Assembly (NCBI GenBank): GCA_015066935.1
Contig: SVNK01000001.1
Location: forward strand, 260,500 to 324,499
From: Ruminococcus sp.
GTDB lineage: Bacteria; Bacillota; Clostridia; Oscillospirales; Ruminococcaceae
Length of the DNA: 64,000 bases
Reading direction: 5' to 3'
Shown here: positions 2,740 to 60,613 of the stretch, piece after piece
Layout of the letters: every line of letters starts with the position of its first letter
How positions within the stretch are numbered: position 1 is the stretch's first letter
Translations under genes and position numbers: made by a program
The notes under the pieces: generated by a model
What the model was told of the DNA's origin: nothing
The model's database searches: none
What the model saw: the letters and a program-made list of their open reading frames with translations, nothing else

Positions 2740-3063
2740 ATGTTCATAAAATTTGTAGGGGACGGCGTCCCGACGTCCCGTTAATACGGAACAATTTCAG
2801 ATGATTACGGACGACCAATGGTCGTCCCTACACGGTGAACATGTCGTGAAATTGTAGGGGCGAACTGTGTTCGCCCGTGAACAATCCGAAACGTCCCGAT
2901 AATTAATACGCATTATATGGATTTCCAATTATTGCGGAAGATTTTCAGATTGCGGACGACCAATGGTCGTCCCTACAATGTGGTTGGTGTCGTGATTGTA
3001 TAATTACGCATTATATGGGACGTCGGTAAGCCGTCCCCTTCAATTCTACGCAGCGTAGAATTG
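2740..3063. repeat. Array of short palindromic intergenic repeats, copy 1
   Basis: The 430 bases between purB and the next gene hold several GC-rich palindromes joined by AT-rich spacers: GGACGACCAATGGTCGTCC twice (about 2810 and 2953), GGGGCGAAC-tgt-GTTCGCCC (about 2858), a GGGACG-type palindrome near 2760, and GGGACGTCGGTAAGCCGTCC near 3017. A 44-base AT-rich unit starting CTACAATGTGGTTGGTGT follows the second GGACGACC palindrome and recurs twice at 3932-4085. The array ends in an 11-bp perfect hairpin (3041-3051 with 3053-3063). I see no gene in it. Confidence 0.8.
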
Positions 3064-3744: not shown

Positions 3745-4086
3745 ACGTCGGGACGACCAGTGGGCGTCCCTGCATTATAATACGCAGAATAGCCGTTTGT
3801 CGTAGGGGCGAACTGTGTTCGCCCGCATGATATATGAATTTTATGGGACGTCGTGGACGCCCACTGGTCGTCCTTGGTCGATGATATGATTACATATCAG
3901 GCAAAACGTTCATCGGACGACCACTGGTCGTCCCTACAATGTGGTTGGTGTAATGATTGTATAATTACGCATTATAGGGGCGTTTTGTTGGATTTTTGTA
4001 TTATTCGGACGGAATTTAACATACGGGCGAACAAAGTTCGCCCCTACAATATGGTTGGTATCATAATTATATAATTACGCATTACA
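3745..4086. repeat. Array of short palindromic intergenic repeats, copy 2
   Basis: The 365 bases between the regulator and rimM contain the same repeat units as the array on the other side of the regulator: GGACGACCA-type palindromes (about 3752, 3857-3873, 3915), GGGGCGAAC-tgt-GTTCGCCC (about 3805) and GGGCGAAC-aaa-GTTCGCCC (about 4025). Two copies of the 44-base AT-rich unit ending TATAATTACGCATTA are at 3932-3976 and 4044-4085. No gene is visible. The last unit ends about 20 bases before the rimM start, so part of it lies in the rimM leader. Confidence 0.8.
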
Positions 4087-7894: not shown

Positions 7895-8380
7895 ATGAAA
7901 ACCAGACAGAATCTTCCGAAAAAAAAGCAGTCTGCCGCTATGACAGCCGCAAAAGTCGTCATGCTTGTCCTGACAGCCGTATATCCGCTTTTTATGACGC
8001 TTATGACGGCGGCAGGTATTCTCACCCATAGAAGTTCGTACGGCTTTTACGTGACGGGTATGGCTGTCCTGCTGATTGTCTCGGGAGTATCCGTGACGAC
8101 AGGTGTGATTCTTGCTCTGCCAAGGAAAAAACTGACGAGTCTTGTTTCACTCTCCCCCACCGTCTGCGGACTCACGCTCTGCCTTGTGACCCTCAGCAGA
8201 CTTTCAGCCTATGCCGACGAACACGGCTGGACTGCCTCGGGAATGTACAGCGGAACCGTCGTGAGCGATATGTATAAATCAAGACTCCTCCCTGTTGTTT
8301 TTCCTGCCGCAATCGCTGTTGTTGTCGCCGTAATTCAGGCGTTTTTCTGCGATTGCAGTAAAAAAAACGTACACTCTTAA
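7895..8380 (+). CDS. Small multi-pass membrane protein, unknown
   Basis: The protein has 161 residues with a basic N-terminus (MKTRQNLPKKKQ) and about four hydrophobic segments (near 18-42, 50-73, 82-100 and 133-152), so an inner-membrane protein is predicted. I recognise no family. AGGAG is well placed before the ATG. It is divergent from spoIVB across about 115 bases. The palindromic element E1 begins immediately after its stop codon. Confidence 0.65.
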   Translation: MKTRQNLPKKKQSAAMTAAKVVMLVLTAVYPLFMTLMTAAGILTHRSSYGFYVTGMAVLLIVSGVSVTTGVILALPRKKLTSLVSLSPTVCGLTLCLVTLSRLSAYADEHGWTASGMYSGTVVSDMYKSRLLPVVFPAAIAVVVAVIQAFFCDCSKKNVHS

Positions 8381-8383
8381 CAG

Positions 8384-8646
8384 TGGTATTCTATCGGAAC
8401 CTTGCGTGCATTATTGAGGAAAACCCTTTTGAAAAAGGGTTCTTCCTCAAACTCCTTTCCTAAAACTTTCAGTATGAAATTTCAGTCGGACAGGGCACAT
8501 ATCATACAAACAAAAATCTGATTATTTTCGGTGTGCCCTGTCTGACTGAAATTTGTATTAAAAGTCTTTGGAAGGGGGTTCGGGGGAGAACCTTTCCTCA
8601 GAAAGGTTTCCCCTGATAATACGTGTAAAGTTCTGATGAAGTATAA
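8384..8646. repeat. Palindromic three-hairpin element E1
   Basis: This ~263-base imperfect palindrome has four parts. The outer arms (about 8385-8413 and 8614-8645) pair with each other. Fixed hairpin 1 (8414-8450) is GAGGAA-AACCCTTTT / AAAAGGGTT-TTCCTC. A long central stem (about 8451-8580) has an inner part, TCGGACAGGGCACA / TGTGCCCTGTCTGA, that is specific to this copy. Fixed hairpin 3 (8582-8613) is GGGGAGAACCTTTC / GAAAGGTTTCCCC. The same fixed hairpins occur at E2-E5. It begins 4 bases after a stop codon, so a terminator-like role is possible. Confidence 0.88.
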
Positions 8647-25563: not shown

Positions 25564-25845
25564 AAGGGGACTATCCTTACAGAAGCATTTATGTTAATTG
25601 TTGAGGAAAACCCTTTTGAAAAAGGGTTGTTCCTCAAACTCCTTTCCTAAAACTTTCAGTATGAAATTTCAGCCCTATAGTGTGCACACAGAAACATTAG
25701 AATTTCTATTTATCAGGACGTGCACACTATAAGGCTGAAATTTGTATTAAAAGTCTTTGGAAGGGGGGTCGGGGGGAGAACCTTTCTTCAGAAAGGTTTC
25801 ACCCGAGAAATAAATATAATACTTCTATATGGTTATAGTCCTTTG
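25564..25845. repeat. Palindromic three-hairpin element E2
   Basis: The plan and orientation match E1. Fixed hairpins are at about 25601-25636 and 25772-25804. The central stem is copy-specific (CCCTATAGTGTGCAC / GTGCACACTATAAGG). The outer arms (AGGGGACTAT... near 25566 and ...ATAGTCCTTT near 25835-25844) pair with each other but differ from those of other copies. It lies inside the glycan operon, after gmd and before the first GT4 gene, so it may lower expression of the distal genes. Confidence 0.87.
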
Positions 25846-31259: not shown

Positions 31260-31321
31260 ATATATTAATATGGTATTCTGCGGACAGAGTACCGATGACT
31301 TTTGAAAAGAGGTTGCATAAT

Positions 31322-32728
31322 ATGCTGAAAAACAATGAAAAAGCAATGGATAAAATCGTGGAGCTCTGCAAAGGCAAGGGCTTTGTATATCCCGGCTCGG
31401 AAATCTACGGCGGACTCGCCAATACATGGGACTACGGTCCTCTCGGAGTTGAGCTGAAAAACAACATCAAGAAAGCGTGGATGAAGAAATTCGTTCAGGA
31501 AAATAAATACAACGTGGGACTCGACAGTGCTATCCTCATGAACCCTCAGACATGGGTCGCTTCAGGACATATCGGCGGCTTCTCAGACCCCCTCATGGAC
31601 TGTAAGGAGTGTAAGACACGTCACCGTGCAGATAACCTCATCGAGGACTTCGACGGTACTAATGTTGCAGGCTGGTCCAACGAGCAGATGACTTCCTATA
31701 TAAATGAGAAGAATATCTGCTGTCCCAACTGCGGAAAGAATAACTTTACCGACATCCGTCAGTTCAACCTCATGTTCAAGACATTCCAGGGCGTTACCGA
31801 GGACAATAAGAGCGAACTCTACCTCCGTCCCGAGACTGCTCAGGGTATCTTCGTAAACTTCGCAAACATCCAGAGAACTACACGTAAAAAGGTTCCCTTC
31901 GGTGTTGCACAGGTAGGAAAGTCGTTCAGAAACGAGATTACTCCCGGAAACTTCATTTTCCGTGTACGTGAGTTCGAGCAGATGGAGCTTGAGTTCTTCT
32001 GCAAGCCCGGTACAGACCTTGAGTGGTTCGACTACTGGAGAAGCTACTGCAAGAACTTCCTCCTCACAATCGGTCTCAGAGAGGAAAACCTCCGTCTCCG
32101 TGACCACGACCCTGAGGAGCTTTGCTTCTACTCAAAGGCTACCACAGACTTCGAATACCTCTTCCCCTTCGGCTGGGGCGAGCTTTGGGGCGTTGCCGAC
32201 AGAACCGACTACGACCTCACTCAGCATATCAAGACAAGCGGTAAGTCACTTGAATACTTCGACCCCGAAACAAATGAGAAGTATATCCCCTACGTTATCG
32301 AGCCTTCACTCGGCGTAGAGCGTCTCTTCCTCTCTGTCATCACAGAGGCTTACGACGAGGAAACTATCACTTCTACCGACAAGAACGGTAACGAGAAGTC
32401 CGAAACAAGAACTGTTATGCACTTCCACCCCGCACTCGCTCCCTTTAAGTGTGCAGTTCTTCCCCTCGTGAAGAAGCTCACTCCCAAGGCAGAGGAAGTT
32501 TATGAGATGCTCTCAAAGAAGTTTATGGTAGACTTCGACGAGGCAGGTACTATCGGTAAAAGATACCGTCGCCAGGACGAAATCGGTACTCCTTTCTGCA
32601 TCACATATGACTTCGATACACTCGAAAAGGATAACTGCGTGACAGTCCGTGACCGTGATACCATGCAGCAGGAGCGTGTGGCTATCGAGGACCTCGTTGC
32701 TTATATCGAAAAGAAAATCGAACTCTGA
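31322..32728 (+). CDS. glyS: Glycyl-tRNA synthetase (class II, homodimeric type)
   Basis: This ~468-residue enzyme charges tRNA-Gly. The N-terminus has [24 protein letters not shown], the catalytic core has [12 protein letters not shown] and [28 protein letters not shown] (class II motif 2), and motif 3 is [13 protein letters not shown]. The anticodon-binding domain is C-terminal. ATG 31322 (AAGAGG, 9-base spacing) is chosen over the ORF start at 31295, which lies upstream of the ribosome site. Called glyQS in some annotations to separate it from the two-subunit enzyme. Confidence 0.97.
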
Positions 32729-32745
32729 GCCTCCCCATATGACTA

Positions 32746-33055
32746 TAATGGAGTCTTTTAATGGTGGTATTTTTACAGGAACTGTATACGTATTTTATCG
32801 GGGGAAACCTTTCTGAGGAAAGGTTCTCCCCCGTACCCCCTTCCAAAGACTTTTAATACAAATTTCAGCCCCGTAGGGTGCGTCCGAAAAAAGTTTGAAC
32901 ATCATGTTCATCCGGATACGCACCCTACGGGGCTGAAATTTCATACTGAAAGTTTTAGGAAAGGAGTTTGAGGAAGAACCCTTTTTCAAAAGGGTTTTCC
33001 TCAATAAAACATGTACATATTTCTATAAGAGTACCACCATTAAAAGACTCCATTA
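32746..33055. repeat. Palindromic three-hairpin element E3
   Basis: This copy is in the opposite orientation to E1. Its outer arms are a perfect 24-bp inverted repeat (32746-32769 with 33032-33055). Fixed hairpin 3 is at about 32799-32832, the copy-specific central stem is CCCCGTAGGGTGCG / CGCACCCTACGGGG (about 32871-32935), and fixed hairpin 1 is at about 32969-33004. It fills the space between glyS and the convergent gene; the right arm includes that gene's stop codon (33053-33055). Confidence 0.9.
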
Positions 33056-33706
33056 TTTATTATCGGAGTTATTGCCTGTATCGGGTTCTGTTTCAAAGAC
33101 GCCCTTATATTCGGCGACACGGGCAGAGTCGCCGTGGCAGTCTATTTCGATTATATTGCGGTTGAGCATAGAGCGAATCATTGCAAAAAGAATCGTGAAT
33201 GAGATGGCGTTTGCGAGTATTCCGAAATAGATTCTTATATTGAGGATAGTGCCGAACATTCCGCCGAGAATGATACCGATACAGATAATCACGGTACTTT
33301 CAAACGGATGCTTATAGCGGTCGAGGTCGAGGAAGCAGAAGCAGACCGCTGCAGAAAGTACCGAATGAATTATTGCAAGCCAGACCGAATACGGGTCGTA
33401 GAAGCTCAGAACCTTGAACGAATTGAGTTCGCAGTACATCATAACTGCTTCCATGACTATGTAAAGAGAGAAGACTGTTTTCAGCAGTTTTCTCATTCTG
33501 GTTGTGATGATTATGAGAACGTCGGCAGCGGCAAGCATTGCGAATCCTCCGAAAAGGCAGAGATACGCACATACTTCAAGCACCTTTGAGAAGCCGCTTG
33601 CAGGGTCGAATGACTTGTAATAAATATAGCAGACAAGTGCAAATATCACAAAAGTAAGATTCCCGTAGAATCCCAGAGAAAGTCCCAGAGAGAGCTTCTT
33701 ATGCAT
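33053..33706 (-). CDS. Multi-pass membrane protein, unknown
   Basis: The protein has 217 residues with about six hydrophobic segments spread over residues 8-180 and a hydrophilic C-terminal tail (about 185-217) ending in Asn/Asp-rich residues. An inner-membrane location is predicted; no family or motif is recognised. It follows purD by 10 bases and is the last gene of the purine run. Its stop codon lies inside the right arm of element E3. Confidence 0.7.
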   Translation of the reverse strand: MHKKLSLGLSLGFYGNLTFVIFALVCYIYYKSFDPASGFSKVLEVCAYLCLFGGFAMLAAADVLIIITTRMRKLLKTVFSLYIVMEAVMMYCELNSFKVLSFYDPYSVWLAIIHSVLSAAVCFCFLDLDRYKHPFESTVIICIGIILGGMFGTILNIRIYFGILANAISFTILFAMIRSMLNRNIIEIDCHGDSARVAEYKGVFETEPDTGNNSDNK

Positions 33707-47485: not shown

Positions 47486-47623
47486 GTATGATTTACCCTT
47501 TCCCCGAACGATTCCTCAATCGTCGGGAACAGCTTTAATAAGCGGAACGGGCTCTGTGAAATCGGCTTGTCTCTGCCGTAAAGGGACGAAGGCGTACCTT
47601 TCAGCGCCGGATTGGAGATTGTT
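47486..47623 (+). other. Long, possibly structured 5' leader
   Basis: The 138-base leader is more GC-rich than the flanking DNA. It contains a hairpin, CGACGATT-like, formed by CGAACGATT (about 47503) and AATCGTCG (about 47518), plus a second GC-rich section with CCGTAAAGGG and GGCG/CGCC pairs. I could not match it to a known riboswitch. Confidence 0.3.
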
Positions 47624-50107
47624 ATGGATATAACTCTTGTTACATCTACGTACAACGATGATGTCCACGGAACCGATAACGATAAAAGAACGGGATGCGG
47701 CATAAGCCTTTTCAAACCCGAAAATATCACAAGATTCCGTCGTGGTGATGTAATGACGGACCTTAAAGAAATTACCTGTGAGAAATGTAAGGCTGCCCTT
47801 GCAAAGAAAATTATCAAATCAGATAAAAAGGAAATGAGCCGCATTATCAAGGAAGAAAAACTGAGAGCAAAAAAAGGTATCGAGGACGAAGGTATTGTCC
47901 CTCTCGGAAATACTACAGCAAGAATTACAGGTCAGCCACGTGCGGCTTCGGAGCCGGTAAGACAGCCGGTTCAGACACCTCCGCCCGTACAGCCTGCGTA
48001 TAATCAGCCTGCATATAATCAGCCGGTGATGAATGCTCCCGAACCCGAAACAGTTCCACAGCCTGCTATTCTTCCGAAGAATATAACAGGTACAAATGTA
48101 CCGATAGACAGCAGTCTTGCTCAGTTTGCAATCAATGTCCCCAAGGAGGAAGACCCCGTTCAGGAGGACGATTTCCTCGCTCAGTTCGCTATCCAGAAGC
48201 CTGAGGAGGAAGAGGAGACGGTCGAGACTGTTGAGAACACTGTTCCCCAGAACGATTTCCTCGCTCAGTTTGCCATTCCGTCACCTGCCGTACAGCAGCT
48301 TGCGGAAGTCTATGCACCTGAGAGTGCCGTTCCCGAAAACAGCGGAATGGACGACATCACCTTCAATGAGCCTGCCCCCGACGTTGACGTTGTTGAGCAG
48401 CAGTACGGTGAAAGCCGCTACCAGAACGACGATTCCATCATTGATATAGAGGAAAACGAGGTTTCGGCTGTTGAACCTGACGATAATCTCGGCACTGAGG
48501 ATGATGACGCCGAAGTTGACCTTACAAGTGTTTCCGAATGGAATATAGTTGCAAATCAGATTTTCGGATTCGAAGGCGCAGAGGAACTCAATCCCGATTC
48601 CGATGCGGAAATGGAGGGAATTCCTGCACCCGTACAGCAGACAGCTCCCGTAATTGAGGACATTCCTGCACCCGTACAGCAGACTGCTCCCGTAATCGAG
48701 GACATTCCTGCACCCGTACAGCAGACAGCTCCCGTAATTGATGATATTGCCGCAGCCGCAGAAGCTGCAGCTTCCTCATTCAACAGATTCACAGCACCTG
48801 TACAGCCTGTCGGTGTACCGGTTTATCCCACACAGCAGACAGCTCCTGTAATCGAGGACATTCCTGCACCCGTACAGCAGACAGTTCCCGTAATCGAGGA
48901 CATTCCTGCACCCGTACAGCAGACAGTTCCCGTAATCGAGGACATTCCTGCACCCGTACAGCAGACAGCTCCCGTAATCGAGGACATTCCTGCACCCGTA
49001 CAGCAGACTGCTCCTGTAATCGAGGACATTCCTGCACCCGTACAGCAGACTGCTCCTGTAATCGAGGACATTTCTGAACCCGTACAGCAGACAGCTCCCG
49101 TAATTGATGATATTGCCGCAGCCGCTGCAGCCGCAGCTGCTTCGTTCAACAGATTTACAGCACCTGTACAGCCTGTCGGTGTACCGGTTTATCCCACAAA
49201 GCAGACTGCTCCCGTAATCGAGGACATTCCTGCACCCGTACAGCAGACTGCTCCCGTAATTGAAGATATTCCTGCACCTGCACCTGTTCCGACCCCTGCA
49301 CCTGTTCCTGCACAGAATGATAACGAAAGAGGGATGAATATGCATATTTACAGCTCAGGAGATATTACAACCGCACCTGCTCAGCCTGCACCGTCAGTTC
49401 AGCAGACAGCACCTGTTCAGCCTGCACCCGCAGTCCAGAAGCCTGCCGCAGTACAGCCGCAGATAGTGAATGTTCCCCAGTTTACGGGAATGGACGCAAA
49501 CGGTCAGCCTGTGTATACATACATTCAGATGCAGATGACAGGCTATGATGCAAGCGGAAAGCCGATTCTTGCACCGCTTCCGGGTCAGCCTGCACCTCAG
49601 CAGATGCCTCAGACGGCAGCTCCTCAGACAGCGGCTCCTCAGACACCAACAGCTGCTTCAACAGGTTATACCGTTCCCACAGCAAATATCTCAAAGATAG
49701 CCGTAAATCAGCATACAAAGCCCACTTCAAGAGCTTTCGTACAGGCAATTGCAAATTCCAAGGGATATGCAAACAAGAATCTTATCGAGACTCAGGGTAT
49801 GCAGGTAAATGCTCCGATGCTCACTTCCATTGAGGACGTTCTTTCACAGATTGATACAGGCTCCGCAGCAAGAGCACAGTCAGGACAGCCTGCTGCTGCT
49901 CCCAAGAAGGCAGCTCCCGTGTACAACGAGTACAAGGCAAATGCACAGCCTGCTTCGAGAATGCCTGCGTCTGCAAGACCTGCACCTCAGCAGCGTCACG
50001 TCGAGGACGATTACCGCTTTATGACAAAGGCTGAAATCAAAGCCAAGAAAAAGCAGGATAAGATTGACGCAAAGTTCAGAAAAGATATGGGCAAGAGAGG
50101 TCTCTGA
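47624..50107 (+). CDS. Repeat-rich, largely disordered protein with N-terminal Cys motif
   Basis: The protein has 827 residues. Residues 1-95 look folded, with a possible metal site (His15, Cys25, Cys52, Cys55) and a Lys-rich helix. Three short motifs follow, each LAQFAI preceded by an acidic residue (about residues 165-230). The middle (bases 48607-49280) is built of 14-residue units of the type APVIEDIPAPVQQT, about 12 copies, broken twice by a unit with an Ala-rich run and FNRFTAPVQPVGVPVYPT. The rest is Pro/Gln/Ala-rich, with a basic C-terminus (KAEIKAKKKQDKIDAKFRK). There is no signal peptide or membrane helix, so it is probably cytoplasmic. Function is unknown; the form suggests a scaffold or linker. 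ATG 47624 has GGAG 6 bases upstream. Confidence 0.8.
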   Translation: MDITLVTSTYNDDVHGTDNDKRTGCGISLFKPENITRFRRGDVMTDLKEITCEKCKAALAKKIIKSDKKEMSRIIKEEKLRAKKGIEDEGIVPLGNTTARITGQPRAASEPVRQPVQTPPPVQPAYNQPAYNQPVMNAPEPETVPQPAILPKNITGTNVPIDSSLAQFAINVPKEEDPVQEDDFLAQFAIQKPEEEEETVETVENTVPQNDFLAQFAIPSPAVQQLAEVYAPESAVPENSGMDDITFNEPAPDVDVVEQQYGESRYQNDDSIIDIEENEVSAVEPDDNLGTEDDDAEVDLTSVSEWNIVANQIFGFEGAEELNPDSDAEMEGIPAPVQQTAPVIEDIPAPVQQTAPVIEDIPAPVQQTAPVIDDIAAAAEAAASSFNRFTAPVQPVGVPVYPTQQTAPVIEDIPAPVQQTVPVIEDIPAPVQQTVPVIEDIPAPVQQTAPVIEDIPAPVQQTAPVIEDIPAPVQQTAPVIEDISEPVQQTAPVIDDIAAAAAAAAASFNRFTAPVQPVGVPVYPTKQTAPVIEDIPAPVQQTAPVIEDIPAPAPVPTPAPVPAQNDNERGMNMHIYSSGDITTAPAQPAPSVQQTAPVQPAPAVQKPAAVQPQIVNVPQFTGMDANGQPVYTYIQMQMTGYDASGKPILAPLPGQPAPQQMPQTAAPQTAAPQTPTAASTGYTVPTANISKIAVNQHTKPTSRAFVQAIANSKGYANKNLIETQGMQVNAPMLTSIEDVLSQIDTGSAARAQSGQPAAAPKKAAPVYNEYKANAQPASRMPASARPAPQQRHVEDDYRFMTKAEIKAKKKQDKIDAKFRKDMGKRGL
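48607..49280 (+). repeat. 42-bp in-frame tandem repeat within the disordered protein
   Basis: About 12 units of roughly 42 bp encode APVIEDIPAPVQQT variants. Two longer units (near 48730-48835 and 49090-49200) are close copies of each other, so the block seems to have grown by duplication at two scales. The number of units may vary between strains. Confidence 0.9.
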
Positions 50108-57308: not shown

Positions 57309-58427
57309 ATGATTATTCTCGACGAACTCAGAGTCGAAATGACGGGATACCGCAAGGAAATGACAGAGCTTGCCGATGTTCTGAACATTAAGGGCGCCAA
57401 GGAAAGAGTAGAGGTTCTTGCGGCTGAAACTGCAAAGGACGGCTTCTGGGATGACCTTGAAAATTCTCAGAATGTGCTCAAGGAACAGAAGGCACTTGAA
57501 AAGAAAATCGAAAAATACAATAAGCTCAACGAAAGTCTTGAGGACCTCATTACCCTCATAGAACTTTCAATCGAGGAGGACGACGAAAGCTCCATTGATG
57601 AAATCAAGGCGGAGTCCGATGCGTTCAAAACCAAGCTTGAGGACGAAAAACTTTCAACCCTCCTCAACGGCGAGTACGACGCTTCAAATGCTATCCTCAC
57701 TTTCCATGCAGGTGCAGGCGGTACAGAGGCTCAGGACTGGGCTGAAATGCTCTACCGTATGTATAACCACTGGGCTGAGCGTCACGACTATAAGGTTACT
57801 CTCCTCGATTACCTCGACGGCGACGATGCAGGTATGAAGTCCGCTTCAATTCTCATCGAGGGCGATAATGCGTATGGATATATGAAATCGGAATCAGGAG
57901 TTCACCGTCTTGTAAGAGTGTCTCCCTTCGATTCTTCGGGAAGACGTCATACATCGTTTGCCGCACTCGAAGTAATGCCCGAAATCGACGACTCCATTGA
58001 AGTTGACATCCGTCCCGAGGATATTGAAATGGAGGTTTACCGTTCAAGCGGTGCAGGCGGTCAGAAGGTTAATAAGACCAGTTCCGCTGTACGTCTTATC
58101 CATAAGCCGACAGGAATTGTAGTTTCATGTCAGACCCAGCGAAGCCAGTACCAGAATAAGGACTACGCTATGAAGATGCTCCGTTCCAAGCTCATCGAAA
58201 TCAAGGAGCGTGAACACCTCGAAAAAATCGACGACATCAAGGGTGTCCAGAACCAGATTGCGTGGGGTTCACAGATACGTTCATACGTCTTCATGCCGTA
58301 TACCCTCGTTAAGGACCACCGTACTTCCTTCGAAAACGGTAACATTCAGGCTGTTATGGACGGCGAAATCGACGGCTTTATCAACGCTTATCTTAAATCG
58401 CTCTCCCACGGCACCCTCGAAAAATAA
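57309..58427 (+). CDS. prfB: Peptide chain release factor 2
   Basis: This 372-residue protein ends translation at UGA and UAA codons. It has the SPF codon-recognition tripeptide in VRVSPFDSSGRRHTSF and the GGQ peptidyl-release motif in SSGAGGQKVNKTSSAVR. The full N-terminal helical domain is encoded in one frame from ATG 57309, so the programmed +1 frameshift (CTTTGAC) used by most bacteria for self-control is absent. AAAGGA precedes the start. Confidence 0.96.
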   Translation: MIILDELRVEMTGYRKEMTELADVLNIKGAKERVEVLAAETAKDGFWDDLENSQNVLKEQKALEKKIEKYNKLNESLEDLITLIELSIEEDDESSIDEIKAESDAFKTKLEDEKLSTLLNGEYDASNAILTFHAGAGGTEAQDWAEMLYRMYNHWAERHDYKVTLLDYLDGDDAGMKSASILIEGDNAYGYMKSESGVHRLVRVSPFDSSGRRHTSFAALEVMPEIDDSIEVDIRPEDIEMEVYRSSGAGGQKVNKTSSAVRLIHKPTGIVVSCQTQRSQYQNKDYAMKMLRSKLIEIKEREHLEKIDDIKGVQNQIAWGSQIRSYVFMPYTLVKDHRTSFENGNIQAVMDGEIDGFINAYLKSLSHGTLEK

Positions 58428-58437
58428 CCTCCACGTC

Positions 58438-58782
58438 TTTAAGAGAAATGATTATATAGAAATGTTATATGGGCTTATCGGGGGAAACCTTTCTGAGGAA
58501 AGGTTCTCCCCCATACCCCCTTCCAAAGACTTTTAATACAAATTTCAGCCCCATAGAGTGCATACAGAAAATTCTGAACATCGTGTTCATTCGGGATATG
58601 CACTCTATGGGGCTGAAATTTCATACTGAAAGTTTTAGGAAAGGAGTTTGAGGATGACTCCCCACAGTGTGGGGAGATGTCCGAAGGACAGAGGGGACAG
58701 GCTCCCGTTGGGGGAACCCTTTTTCAAAAGGGTTTTCCTCAATAAGCACGTATATATTCCTGTACAGTCATTCCTTTACCGA
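58438..58782. repeat. Palindromic three-hairpin element E4, with insertion
   Basis: This copy has the E3 orientation. Outer arms (about 58438-58480 and 58741-58781) pair imperfectly. Fixed hairpin 3 is at 58480-58512, the central copy-specific stem is CCCCATAGAGTGCAT / ATGCACTCTATGGGG (58550-58615), and fixed hairpin 1 (about 58650-58742) is interrupted by a ~58-base insertion at about 58655-58712. The insertion holds its own palindrome (TCCCCACA / TGTGGGGA). E4 starts about 10 bases after prfB. Confidence 0.86.
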
Positions 58783-58966: not shown

Positions 58967-60301
58967 ATGGCTAATAAAGTTGTAAAATTCGGTGGAAGCA
59001 GTCTTGCTGACGCTAATCAGTTCAGAAAGGTTGCAGACATAATCAAGAGCGATTCCAAGCGTATTTACGTGGTTCCGTCGGCTCCCGGAAAGCGTTTTTC
59101 GGACGACATCAAGATTACAGACATGCTTTATAAGTGCTGTGAGCTTGCAGGAAGCGGCGTCGATTTTTCTGAGGACTTTCAGATAATCAAGGACAGATAT
59201 AACGGTATTATTTCCGACCTCGGCATTGATATGTCTCTTGAGGACGAGTTCAATGCAATTGCTGCCGAGCTTAAAAGCCGTCCCGCTAAGGACTTCGCCG
59301 CAAGCCGTGGAGAGTACCTCAACGGAAAAATTCTTGCAAAGTATCTCGGCTACAATTTTGTTGACGCTGCCGATGTTATTATCTTTGATACAAAGGGTTC
59401 GCTTCTCCTTGAGGACACTGTAAAGGCTGTCCGTGAGAAGCTTGACGGTCTTGAAAACGCAGTTATCCCCGGTTTCTACGGAAAGACTACTGAGGGCTGC
59501 ATCAAGACATTCTCAAGAGGCGGTTCAGATGTTACAGGTTCGATTATCGCAAACGCTGTAAGAGCCGAAATCTACGAGAACTGGACAGACGTTTCAGGCT
59601 TCCTCGTTGCAGACCCCAGAATAGTAGAAAATCCCGACGTTATCGAAACAATTACTTACCGTGAGCTTCGTGAGCTTGCATATATGGGTGCTTCCGTTCT
59701 CCACGAGGACGCTATCTTCCCCGTGCGTTCAGCAGGTATTCCCATTAATATCAGAAATACAAACCGTCCGCAGGACGCAGGTACAATGATTGTCGCTAAT
59801 GACTACGATTTCAGTAAGGAGAGTCTCTGCCACACCATCACAGGTATCGCAGGCAGAAAGGGCTTCAGTACAATCAATATCGAAAAGGCTATGATGAACA
59901 GCGAAACAGGCTTCGGCATGAAGGTTCTCAAGGTGCTTTTCGACCACGGAATCTCCTTTGAGCATATGCCCTCGGGAATCGACACAATGAGCATTACCGT
60001 TGACAGCTCAAAGCTTGACCCCGTCCGTGAAGAGGTCCTTGCCGACATCAGAAAGGCTGTTAACCCCGACCACCTCGAAATTGAGGACGGAATCGCAATT
60101 CTTGCCGTTGTGGGACGTCGTATGAAAAATACAAGAGGTACTGTTGCACGTATTTTCGCTGCAATGGCTCATGCACGTATCAACGTCAAGATGATCGACC
60201 AGGGTTCCAGTGAGCTTAACGTCATCATCGGCGTCAGCGAGCACGACCTCCCCGAAGCTATCAGACGTATCTACGATATGTTTATCAATTCCGAAAAGTA
60301 A
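58967..60301 (+). CDS. lysC: Aspartate kinase
   Basis: This 444-residue monofunctional aspartokinase catalyses the first step of lysine, threonine and methionine synthesis. The kinase domain opens with VVKFGGSSLADANQF and includes SRGGSDVTGSIIANAV and NWTDVSGFLVADPRI. Two C-terminal ACT domains follow (around GFSTINIEKAMMN and ARINVKMIDQGSSELNVIIGV), implying feedback control by an amino acid. There is no fused homoserine dehydrogenase. It has its own promoter; element E5 follows the stop codon. Confidence 0.95.
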   Translation: MANKVVKFGGSSLADANQFRKVADIIKSDSKRIYVVPSAPGKRFSDDIKITDMLYKCCELAGSGVDFSEDFQIIKDRYNGIISDLGIDMSLEDEFNAIAAELKSRPAKDFAASRGEYLNGKILAKYLGYNFVDAADVIIFDTKGSLLLEDTVKAVREKLDGLENAVIPGFYGKTTEGCIKTFSRGGSDVTGSIIANAVRAEIYENWTDVSGFLVADPRIVENPDVIETITYRELRELAYMGASVLHEDAIFPVRSAGIPINIRNTNRPQDAGTMIVANDYDFSKESLCHTITGIAGRKGFSTINIEKAMMNSETGFGMKVLKVLFDHGISFEHMPSGIDTMSITVDSSKLDPVREEVLADIRKAVNPDHLEIEDGIAILAVVGRRMKNTRGTVARIFAAMAHARINVKMIDQGSSELNVIIGVSEHDLPEAIRRIYDMFINSEK

Positions 60302-60314
60302 CCCCCATAACAGT

Positions 60315-60613
60315 AAAGCTCCCCTTTGCTGTAGCTTTTATTGGGATTTATACATGGTCTATTGAGGAAAACCCTTTTGAAAAAGGGTTCTTCCTCAAAC
60401 TCCTTTCCTAAAACTTTCAGTATGAAATTTCAGCCCGACAGGGTGCATATTCCATATGAACACAAAGTTCAGAAATTATTGGATGCACCCTGTCGGGCTG
60501 AAATTTGTATTAAAAGTCTTTGGAAGGGGGTACGGGGGAGAACCTTTCCTCAGAAAGGTTTCCCCCGATAAACCCATATAAGTTCAATAAAAACTACAGT
60601 TAAGAGGAGCTTG
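60315..60613. repeat. Palindromic three-hairpin element E5
   Basis: This copy has the E1 orientation. Outer arms AAGCTCC...CTGTAG.TTTTATTG (60316-60342) and CAATAAAA.CTACAG...GGAGCTT (60585-60612) pair over most of their length. Fixed hairpins are at about 60361-60397 and 60532-60566, and the central copy-specific stem is CCCGACAGGGTGCAT / ATGCACCCTGTCGGG (60434-60500). It lies between the convergent lysC and lipoprotein genes; the right arm contains the lipoprotein stop codon (60600-60602). Confidence 0.89.

Follow-up and report, generated by a model that had tools for sequence, protein, structure and literature searches.

Five palindromic elements in the window analysed here, a 64,000-nt stretch of a Ruminococcus sp. 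genome, belong to a dispersed intergenic family, present in dozens of copies in rumen-type Ruminococcus, whose central arms differ between copies yet remain paired within each copy. We favour, with moderate confidence, the interpretation that the family is a non-autonomous, near-palindromic foldback DNA element residing in bidirectional terminators, that template switching renews the pairing of its arms, and that its cores are exchanged. The pattern of change suggests that the match between the two halves is maintained by DNA copying and not by selection on the shape of an RNA. A functional RNA is usually proved by covariation, and this family shows intense covariation together with mutational marks at the DNA level. 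It is a natural test case for a question posed in the available text of PMC8794818, namely how much covariation template switching produces. Relative to the first-pass annotation of the window, the points added below are the setting in terminators, the inversion of loops and cores, and the nested modules.

Anatomy and distribution of the family

The first-pass annotation had placed five elements, E1 to E5, in the window, and all five were present where it had put them, each between open reading frames (ORFs). E1, E2 and E5 run on the plus strand and, as a correction to that annotation, E3 and E4 are inverted relative to these. E1 (8384-8646) lies 3' of an ORF ending at 8380 and comprises outer arms (8384-8413 and 8617-8646), the fixed hairpins A (8414-8450) and B (8581-8616), and a tip whose left arm TCGGACAGGGCAC (8486-8498) and right arm GTGCCCTGTCTGA (8533-8545) show one G-T mismatch. 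E2 (25564-25845), flanked by two minus-strand ORFs, has hairpin A at 25601-25637, tip arms at 25673-25685 and 25722-25734 with one C-A mismatch, and hairpin B at 25770-25806. The corresponding parts of E5 (60315-60613), which is flanked by convergent ORFs and lies 3' of an amino-acid-kinase/ACT gene ending at 60301, are hairpin A (60362-60398), the left and right tip arms (60434-60446 and 60485-60497) and hairpin B (60533-60568). On the minus strand, E3 (32746-33055) is flanked by convergent ORFs at 31295-32728 (plus) and 33053-33706 (minus) and contains hairpin B (32798-32833), tip arms that read CCCCGTAGGGTGC (32869-32881) and GCACCCTACGGGG (32920-32932) on the plus strand, and hairpin A (32968-33004). 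E4 (58438-58782, also minus), 3' of a release-factor gene with PCRF and RF-1 domains that ends at 58427, contains hairpin B (58478-58513), tip arms reading CCCCATAGAGTGC (58549-58561) and GCACTCTATGGGG (58600-58612) on the plus strand, and a hairpin A (58648-58742) interrupted by a nested hairpin module of ~60 nt (58655-58714, approximate boundaries). With up to three mismatches allowed, hairpin A occurred five times in the window against 0.00 expected, and relative to shuffled sequence the fold z-scores were -12.5 for E1 (RNA parameters) and -10.6 for E4 (DNA parameters).

Each element measures ~260-350 nt, outer arms counted in. Read from the outside inwards, an A-tract is followed by ~10 locus-specific nucleotides, a common arm of ~38 nt, hairpin A and the central stem, after which come hairpin B, the mirrored arms and a terminal T-tract, so that three hairpins are enclosed by an outer stem. 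The claim that the outer arms differ in every copy appears to hold for the outermost ~10 nt; the ~38 nt beside the hairpins instead follow a common consensus, TAAGGGTAATGTCCGTACAGAAGTATATACGTTACTTA, with 50-84% agreement at most positions. The central stem is fixed in its lower part and variable in its upper part, and carries a loop of ~34-41 nt. All 33 copies in the genome that contains the window include the 13-mer TATGAAATTTCAG, and the unpaired strands of the lower stem, CCTAAAACTTTC and AAAGTCTTTGG, are kept in these copies and, with few substitutions, in copies from relatives among the matches listed. Between copies, the sequences of hairpins A and B vary little. They had been described as fixed in all five elements, which needs correction for E4, whose hairpin A carries the second module of ~60 nt. 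Such modules were recognised by eye in seven of the 33 copies (five in hairpin A, two in B), and twice a module was present in one and absent from the other of two otherwise near-identical orthologous copies (L069/L348 and L076/L347).

Three side observations concern these parts. The ~60-nt module sits at fixed points in hairpins A or B, at 58655-58714 in the window and at loci L027, L028, L347 and L348. Locus L034 (G000 C2:5073-5117) is a deletion derivative or degenerate copy that keeps the terminator and outer arms and has, where the core should be, one small hybrid hairpin assembled from a piece of B and a piece of A. A second hairpin-B-like piece lies ~100 nt past a full copy at L038 (G000 C16:8191-8232).

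A search of the whole genome and its relatives, for which a covariance model had been proposed, was run with BLAST. The family of five proved correct for the window, and the genome (G000; 2.1 Mb in 18 contigs) holds 33 full copies, of which a few more may have been missed, 40 of 45 candidates having been scored; the E5 query matched copies in reverse orientation at 68-79% identity. Matches were present in 34 of 80 genomes searched (at most ten candidates scored per genome), comprising the own genome, 32 of 47 others of the same genus and one genome outside it, where the match was marginal (E = 3.9e-5). A pattern scan of named genomes found at least 118 stretches, and the titles among the matches listed were Ruminococcus (many of them R. 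flavefaciens) or Oscillospiraceae/Clostridiales assemblies. Within G000, the dnaA-bearing contig C7 (dnaA at 236758) carries 19 of the 33 copies on 18.8% of the bases (p = 8.9e-7), an excess that was seen first and tested afterwards. The core of E5 had no blastn match in a phage or a plasmid collection, and a phage or plasmid origin was rejected.

Coverage by a known Rfam family, one of the outcomes named beforehand as contrary, was not seen, with zero matches at gathering scores over the window. By E-value, E5 gave nine sub-threshold matches, seven of them of microRNA type and the best at E 7.4e-6 with 36 of 100 bits; we read these as hairpin similarity and rejected a known RNA family. Our search of the open-licence literature found no published description of the family.

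Terminator setting of the elements

The flanks suggest that the elements are seated within bidirectional intrinsic terminators of Ruminococcus. By simple ORF calling, 22 of the 33 copies are flanked by convergent ORFs. On contig C7, 12 of the 18 junctions that bear an element are convergent, compared with 20 of the 160 that lack one and span at least 40 nt (Fisher p = 1.4e-6; the copy at 366925 was not assigned to a junction). An A-run was found on the left of 27 of 32 copies (the opposite letter in one) and a T-run on the right of 24 of 32 (the opposite letter in three), with both present in 19 of 32. When the element was removed in silico from ten copies of two relatives, the joined flanks formed compact terminator-like hairpins with A/T tracts in at least seven, as judged by eye.

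Like intrinsic (Rho-independent) terminators, the elements combine an A-tract, a stem and a T-tract 3' of stop codons in an arrangement usable both ways, and a stem followed by a T-run was indeed found just 3' of genes. Unlike them, they hold a structured core of ~240 nt and largely fixed sequence in the position of the loop. The outer arms resemble the stem of a two-way terminator, and their pairing is probably also held by that job.

The flanks are themselves complementary, terminator-like arms; no direct target duplication was seen by eye, and no clean empty site that would define the junction was found. Orthologous gene ends that lack the element exist, with terminator stems of different sequence. 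In a close species pair this comparison rested on five alignments, of which L067/L344 and L065/L345 were poor on at least one side; clean insertion into an identical pre-existing terminator was not supported, the element-free sites of the pair having different terminator stems. The family suggests a role for gene terminators as long-term sites at which foldback DNA is exchanged, and transcription between convergent genes may be affected.

Change in the paired arms, loops and cores

The first-pass annotation held that every variable half matches its own partner, and the arm pairs that it quoted for E1, E3 and E4 were exact. Copy-specific pairing extended to the genome as a whole: the mean duplex energy was -41.8 for outer arms of the same copy compared with -23.7 for arms swapped between copies, and -28.5 compared with -18.9 for tip arms (32 of 33 copies each; L025, in which the start of hairpin A was not recognisable, was left out of the pairing, arm-consensus and A/T-run counts). 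These own means lie ~15 (outer) and ~9 (tip) permutation standard deviations from the permuted means, whose standard deviations were 1.15 and 1.03, respectively. Own and swapped energies were -13.5 and -6.2 for the outermost ~20 nt of the outer arms and -25.2 and -17.5 for the inner 38 nt.

The statistical test of covariation that had been proposed was made on the upper central stem of 26 of the 33 copies, the seven nested-module copies (L025 among them) being left out. Pairing was seen in 99.2% of 520 cells compared with 89.4% after shuffling, and none of 500 shuffles scored as high. Ten of the 20 pairs showed two-sided changes; by cell, where copies and not events are counted, there were 50 two-sided, one one-sided standard and four unpaired. 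The signal was lost when the partner was slid by one to three columns. One of five measures, the number of further pair types, was not unusual (16 against 13.8, with 65 of 500 shuffles as high). Arms drifting independently with loss of pairing, the outcome named beforehand as contrary, were not seen.

The course of change was followed in 203 distinct copies from the fetched loci, with 188 distinct central segments. These copies were picked by two fixed-stem anchors with at most one substitution each, and because they were picked in this way the constancy of the anchors is partly by choice. After central segments below 75 nt were dropped, 173 of 188 were kept for the link and inversion counts; 126 of the 173 had a close enough neighbour, giving a graph of 102 links, with 76 closest links at a score/length of at least 0.80 and 29 at 0.94 or above. 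Along the 76 links, two-sided arm changes numbered 32 where the loop rate predicts 6.9, and one-sided changes 45 where it predicts 226. Transversions made up 21 of the 32 two-sided changes (11 transitions) and 69 of 138 loop changes (69 transitions), and five of the 23 links having any two-sided change had more than one. At the 29 closest links, one-sided changes outnumbered two-sided ones 16 to 1, from which we conclude that double changes arise in two steps; coupling of the arms in one step was rejected as unsupported at these shortest distances.

Mismatches standing in the tip comprised 37 G-T, 43 A-C and 119 others among 3428 cells, and those in the outer arms (149 of the 203 distinct copies) comprised 456 G-T, 464 A-C and 472 others among 6815 cells, as counted from local alignment of the two halves with no credit for wobble. 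One-sided changes on the links touched G-T 21 times and A-C ten times in energy-folded stems, a count biased toward G-T since such stems admit G-T and not A-C in the reference; for this reason we relied on the standing mismatches. In a single-stranded RNA under selection, G-U would be expected to exceed A-C on the sense strand and transitions to prevail where both sides change; neither was seen in the standing-mismatch and two-sided counts.

Within species, the loop was found either way round, and the fixed stem did not turn with it. Inversions of the loop were seen in 23 of the 76 closest links, among near-identical copies, with a median alignment gain of 33 compared with a mean of -0.1 (s.d. 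5.6) in 1491 unrelated pairs, 156 of which also passed the gain threshold of 6. The loops of G011 L346 and G041 L412, at different loci in two species, are exact reverse complements, and the loop is likewise inverted between copies L112 and L113 of G037.

Whole cores are also inverted between G011 and G041, a close species pair. Eight sites common to the two genomes were compared, five matched by both flanks and three by one flank or contig-end pieces (L420 had no usable core). Three sites keep core and orientation (L392/L042, L411/L414 and L419/L399). At four, the core differs and is turned the other way, beside flanks that are 89-99% identical: L401/L396 and L417/L402 have both flanks inside contigs, and L400/L410 and L415/L416 were judged at contig ends. 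At the two firm sites, identity is almost complete up to the change, both across the flanks and along the outer halves of the outer arms. The eighth site is ambiguous, L409 sharing its core with L404 and L406 in contradictory orientations at two contig ends. In this one pair of species, then, cores have been exchanged and inverted at fixed genomic sites, firmly so at two of them.

These observations can be joined in the following scheme. Each element would consist of two fixed, asymmetric half-sites, hairpin A with strand CCTAAAACTTTC and strand AAAGTCTTTGG with hairpin B, whose sequence and mismatches persist in nearly all copies seen and which are probably held by selection and bound by a putative protein. 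Between them the upper stem and loop would change freely, with changes in one arm tending to reach the other. When the hairpin is replicated, a template switch may copy a mutated arm onto its partner or, alternatively, copy the loop in reverse and so invert it; two-sided arm changes and loop inversions would then need no selection for RNA shape. The core between the outer arms would be exchanged and inverted at fixed sites by transposition or by recombination between copies. Mismatches persist in the fixed lower stem, where arm copying should have mended them; this counts against the scheme unless selection holds that stem or copying stops there.

We infer template switching because homogenisation of arms together with inversion of the spacer is its signature at inverted repeats, as stated in the available text of PMC8604942. 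Compensatory changes and loop inversions are likewise ascribed to it in RNA genes in the accessible portion of PMC8794818. Of the patterns compared there, only multiple compensatory changes and loop inversion by itself are enriched; compensatory change combined with loop inversion is not, which counts against the present reading. As far as the available parts of PMC8794818, PMC8604942 and PMC7202029 describe quasipalindrome template-switch mutation, the likeness lies in arm homogenisation, multi-base compensatory changes and spacer inversion, and the difference in that those cases were RNA genes, coding sequences and reporters, whereas here the process would have acted repeatedly on one dispersed family. 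The first-pass annotation had left two options, a selected fold or the copying of one arm from the other; for the tip, the transversion-rich two-sided changes, the lack of a wobble preference and the loop inversions favour copying. Selection on pairing at the DNA level could give the same two-step coupling, and this, or RNA selection on both strands together, is possible.

A more speculative extension, which we hold only tentatively, is that the shape itself is the heritable unit: the fold would be inherited while the arms are rewritten from their partners and loops and cores flip and move between terminator docking sites. If so, the strong 'covariation' seen here would be a by-product of DNA copying, and a mobile cassette would continually rebuild terminators of its host.

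Competing explanations and known repeat systems

A structured RNA, such as a giant bidirectional terminator or a 3'-UTR RNA whose selected fold makes the arms covary by compensatory mutation, would account for the position of the elements directly 3' of stop codons, for the strong covariation of the upper stem and for the three hairpins within an outer stem. The outer arms, where 920 of 1392 mismatches are G-T or A-C, are compatible with a two-way terminator, the biased link count leans toward G-T, and transcription of both strands, with selection on both RNAs, would likewise yield equal numbers of G-T and A-C. We nevertheless judge this explanation unlikely, given the near-equal G-T and A-C counts in the tip, two-sided changes with no excess of transitions, the frequency of loop inversion, the different and oppositely oriented cores at half of the shared sites, the small sequence variation of hairpins A and B, and the lack of an Rfam match at gathering scores. 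The suggestion of a new RNA class thus keeps its novelty with respect to Rfam and, in its plain form, is disfavoured by the mismatch spectrum and the loop inversions. Much less probable still is that the inverted loops and swapped cores are repeat misassemblies. Many of the genomes, G011 and G041 included, were assembled from metagenomes, contig ends hold several of the copies, and one G041 site is contradictory at two such ends. Against this, loops are inverted between the two G037 copies, and for two core swaps both flanks are contained within contigs. The ambiguity of L409 and the two of four swaps judged at contig ends add to the probability that we assign to artefact and reduce our confidence in foldback DNA renewed by template switching. 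The conflict between L404 and L406, at the ends of G041 contigs C37 and C18, may reflect misassembly or a population in which the two orientations coexist.

Two further explanations concern how the copies spread. A substantial minority probability goes to homologous recombination or gene conversion as the only process, acting among old, vertically inherited copies of a family not mobile at present. G000 L006 and L009 (= E3) adjoin genes whose relatives in G011 and G041 also carry an element, the cores at these loci and their counterparts bear species-specific signatures, and, where the core differs, the outer portion of the outer arms is still orthologous. Conversely, none of 29 relatives carries a full element after the amino-acid-kinase gene, as judged by eye (L168 has a hairpin-B-like remnant), from which it follows that sites are gained or lost, and 33 copies in 2.1 Mb imply that the family was amplified at some point. 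Somewhat doubtful, in our view, is mobilisation of a MITE in trans by a transposase that binds the fixed hairpins, with selection for a transposition-competent hairpin keeping the tip paired, as in relatives of REP/RAYT or IS200/IS605. The multiple copies with near-identical ends, the modules present or absent at orthologous copies and the swapped cores fit it, and a gene like those of REP-associated tyrosine transposases (RAYT) had a match in 23 of the 33 genomes of the genus that carry the element and in none of the 15 that do not. On the other side, ten element-bearing genomes had no match and ancestry confounds the co-occurrence. We found no mobilising enzyme and, in the fetched loci, no autonomous copy with the same ends, 0 of 313 paired half-sites being more than 200 nt apart (overlapping loci were counted repeatedly, and 40 left half-sites with no partner in the locus were set aside). 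Nor did the 19 copies on the dnaA contig show strand bias of the IS200/IS605 type (ten plus and nine minus; six plus and five minus on the right replichore, four and four on the left), and a target duplication was not recognised by eye.

We file the family as an intergenic palindromic repeat that behaves like a MITE-type foldback repeat. It shares with prokaryotic MITEs short, non-coding, near-palindromic, multi-copy (33) and probably non-autonomous elements with terminal inverted repeats, here the imperfect outer arms, and it differs in that central arms change between copies yet stay paired and that neither an autonomous partner (in the fetched loci) nor a target duplication or a clean empty site came to light. 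The earlier label of MITE-like is supported by copy number and core swapping and not by a transposase partner, a target-site duplication or a clean empty site. YPAL and other Yersinia intergenic stem-loop families, as described in the available part of PMC2267715 (YPAL-type models of 168 and 136 nt from 101 and 26 sequences), are likewise palindromic intergenic repeats with predicted structure; compared by description, the present family differs in its two fixed hairpins, covarying tip, loop inversion, core exchange and two-way terminator seating. The GTAG-tagged REP/BIME repeats associated with RAYT (PMC3733652 and PMC2817692, in their accessible text) are similarly palindromic and extragenic, and the genome contains a RAYT-like gene; the repeat of that RAYT is the short GTAGGGGCG palindrome (compare the window repeats D4), and the present elements are ~10 times longer.

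The RAYT-like gene lies at L305:2145-2672 (G000 C7:362145-362672) and also at L312, and so was found in two species. Its coding region contains its own GTAGGGGCG...CGCCCCTAC palindromes, which are its likely substrate, and no hairpin A or B adjoins it on C7, although a repeat beside the gene is what marks REP/RAYT systems. On account of these palindromes and the confounding by ancestry, RAYT was rejected as the mobiliser. In both species the gene is directly 5' of one that we take to resemble thrS, and the region 5' of the RAYT-like gene looks T-box-like, but Rfam gave no match there at gathering scores. Within the window, a short palindromic family of three copies (2918-3013, 3879-3974 and 3989-4084; for example GGACGACC...GGTCGTCCCTACAATG) perhaps represents RAYT-type REPs. 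Elsewhere in the window, repeats spaced by 42 nt occupy 48568-49275 within a large ORF at 47612-50107.
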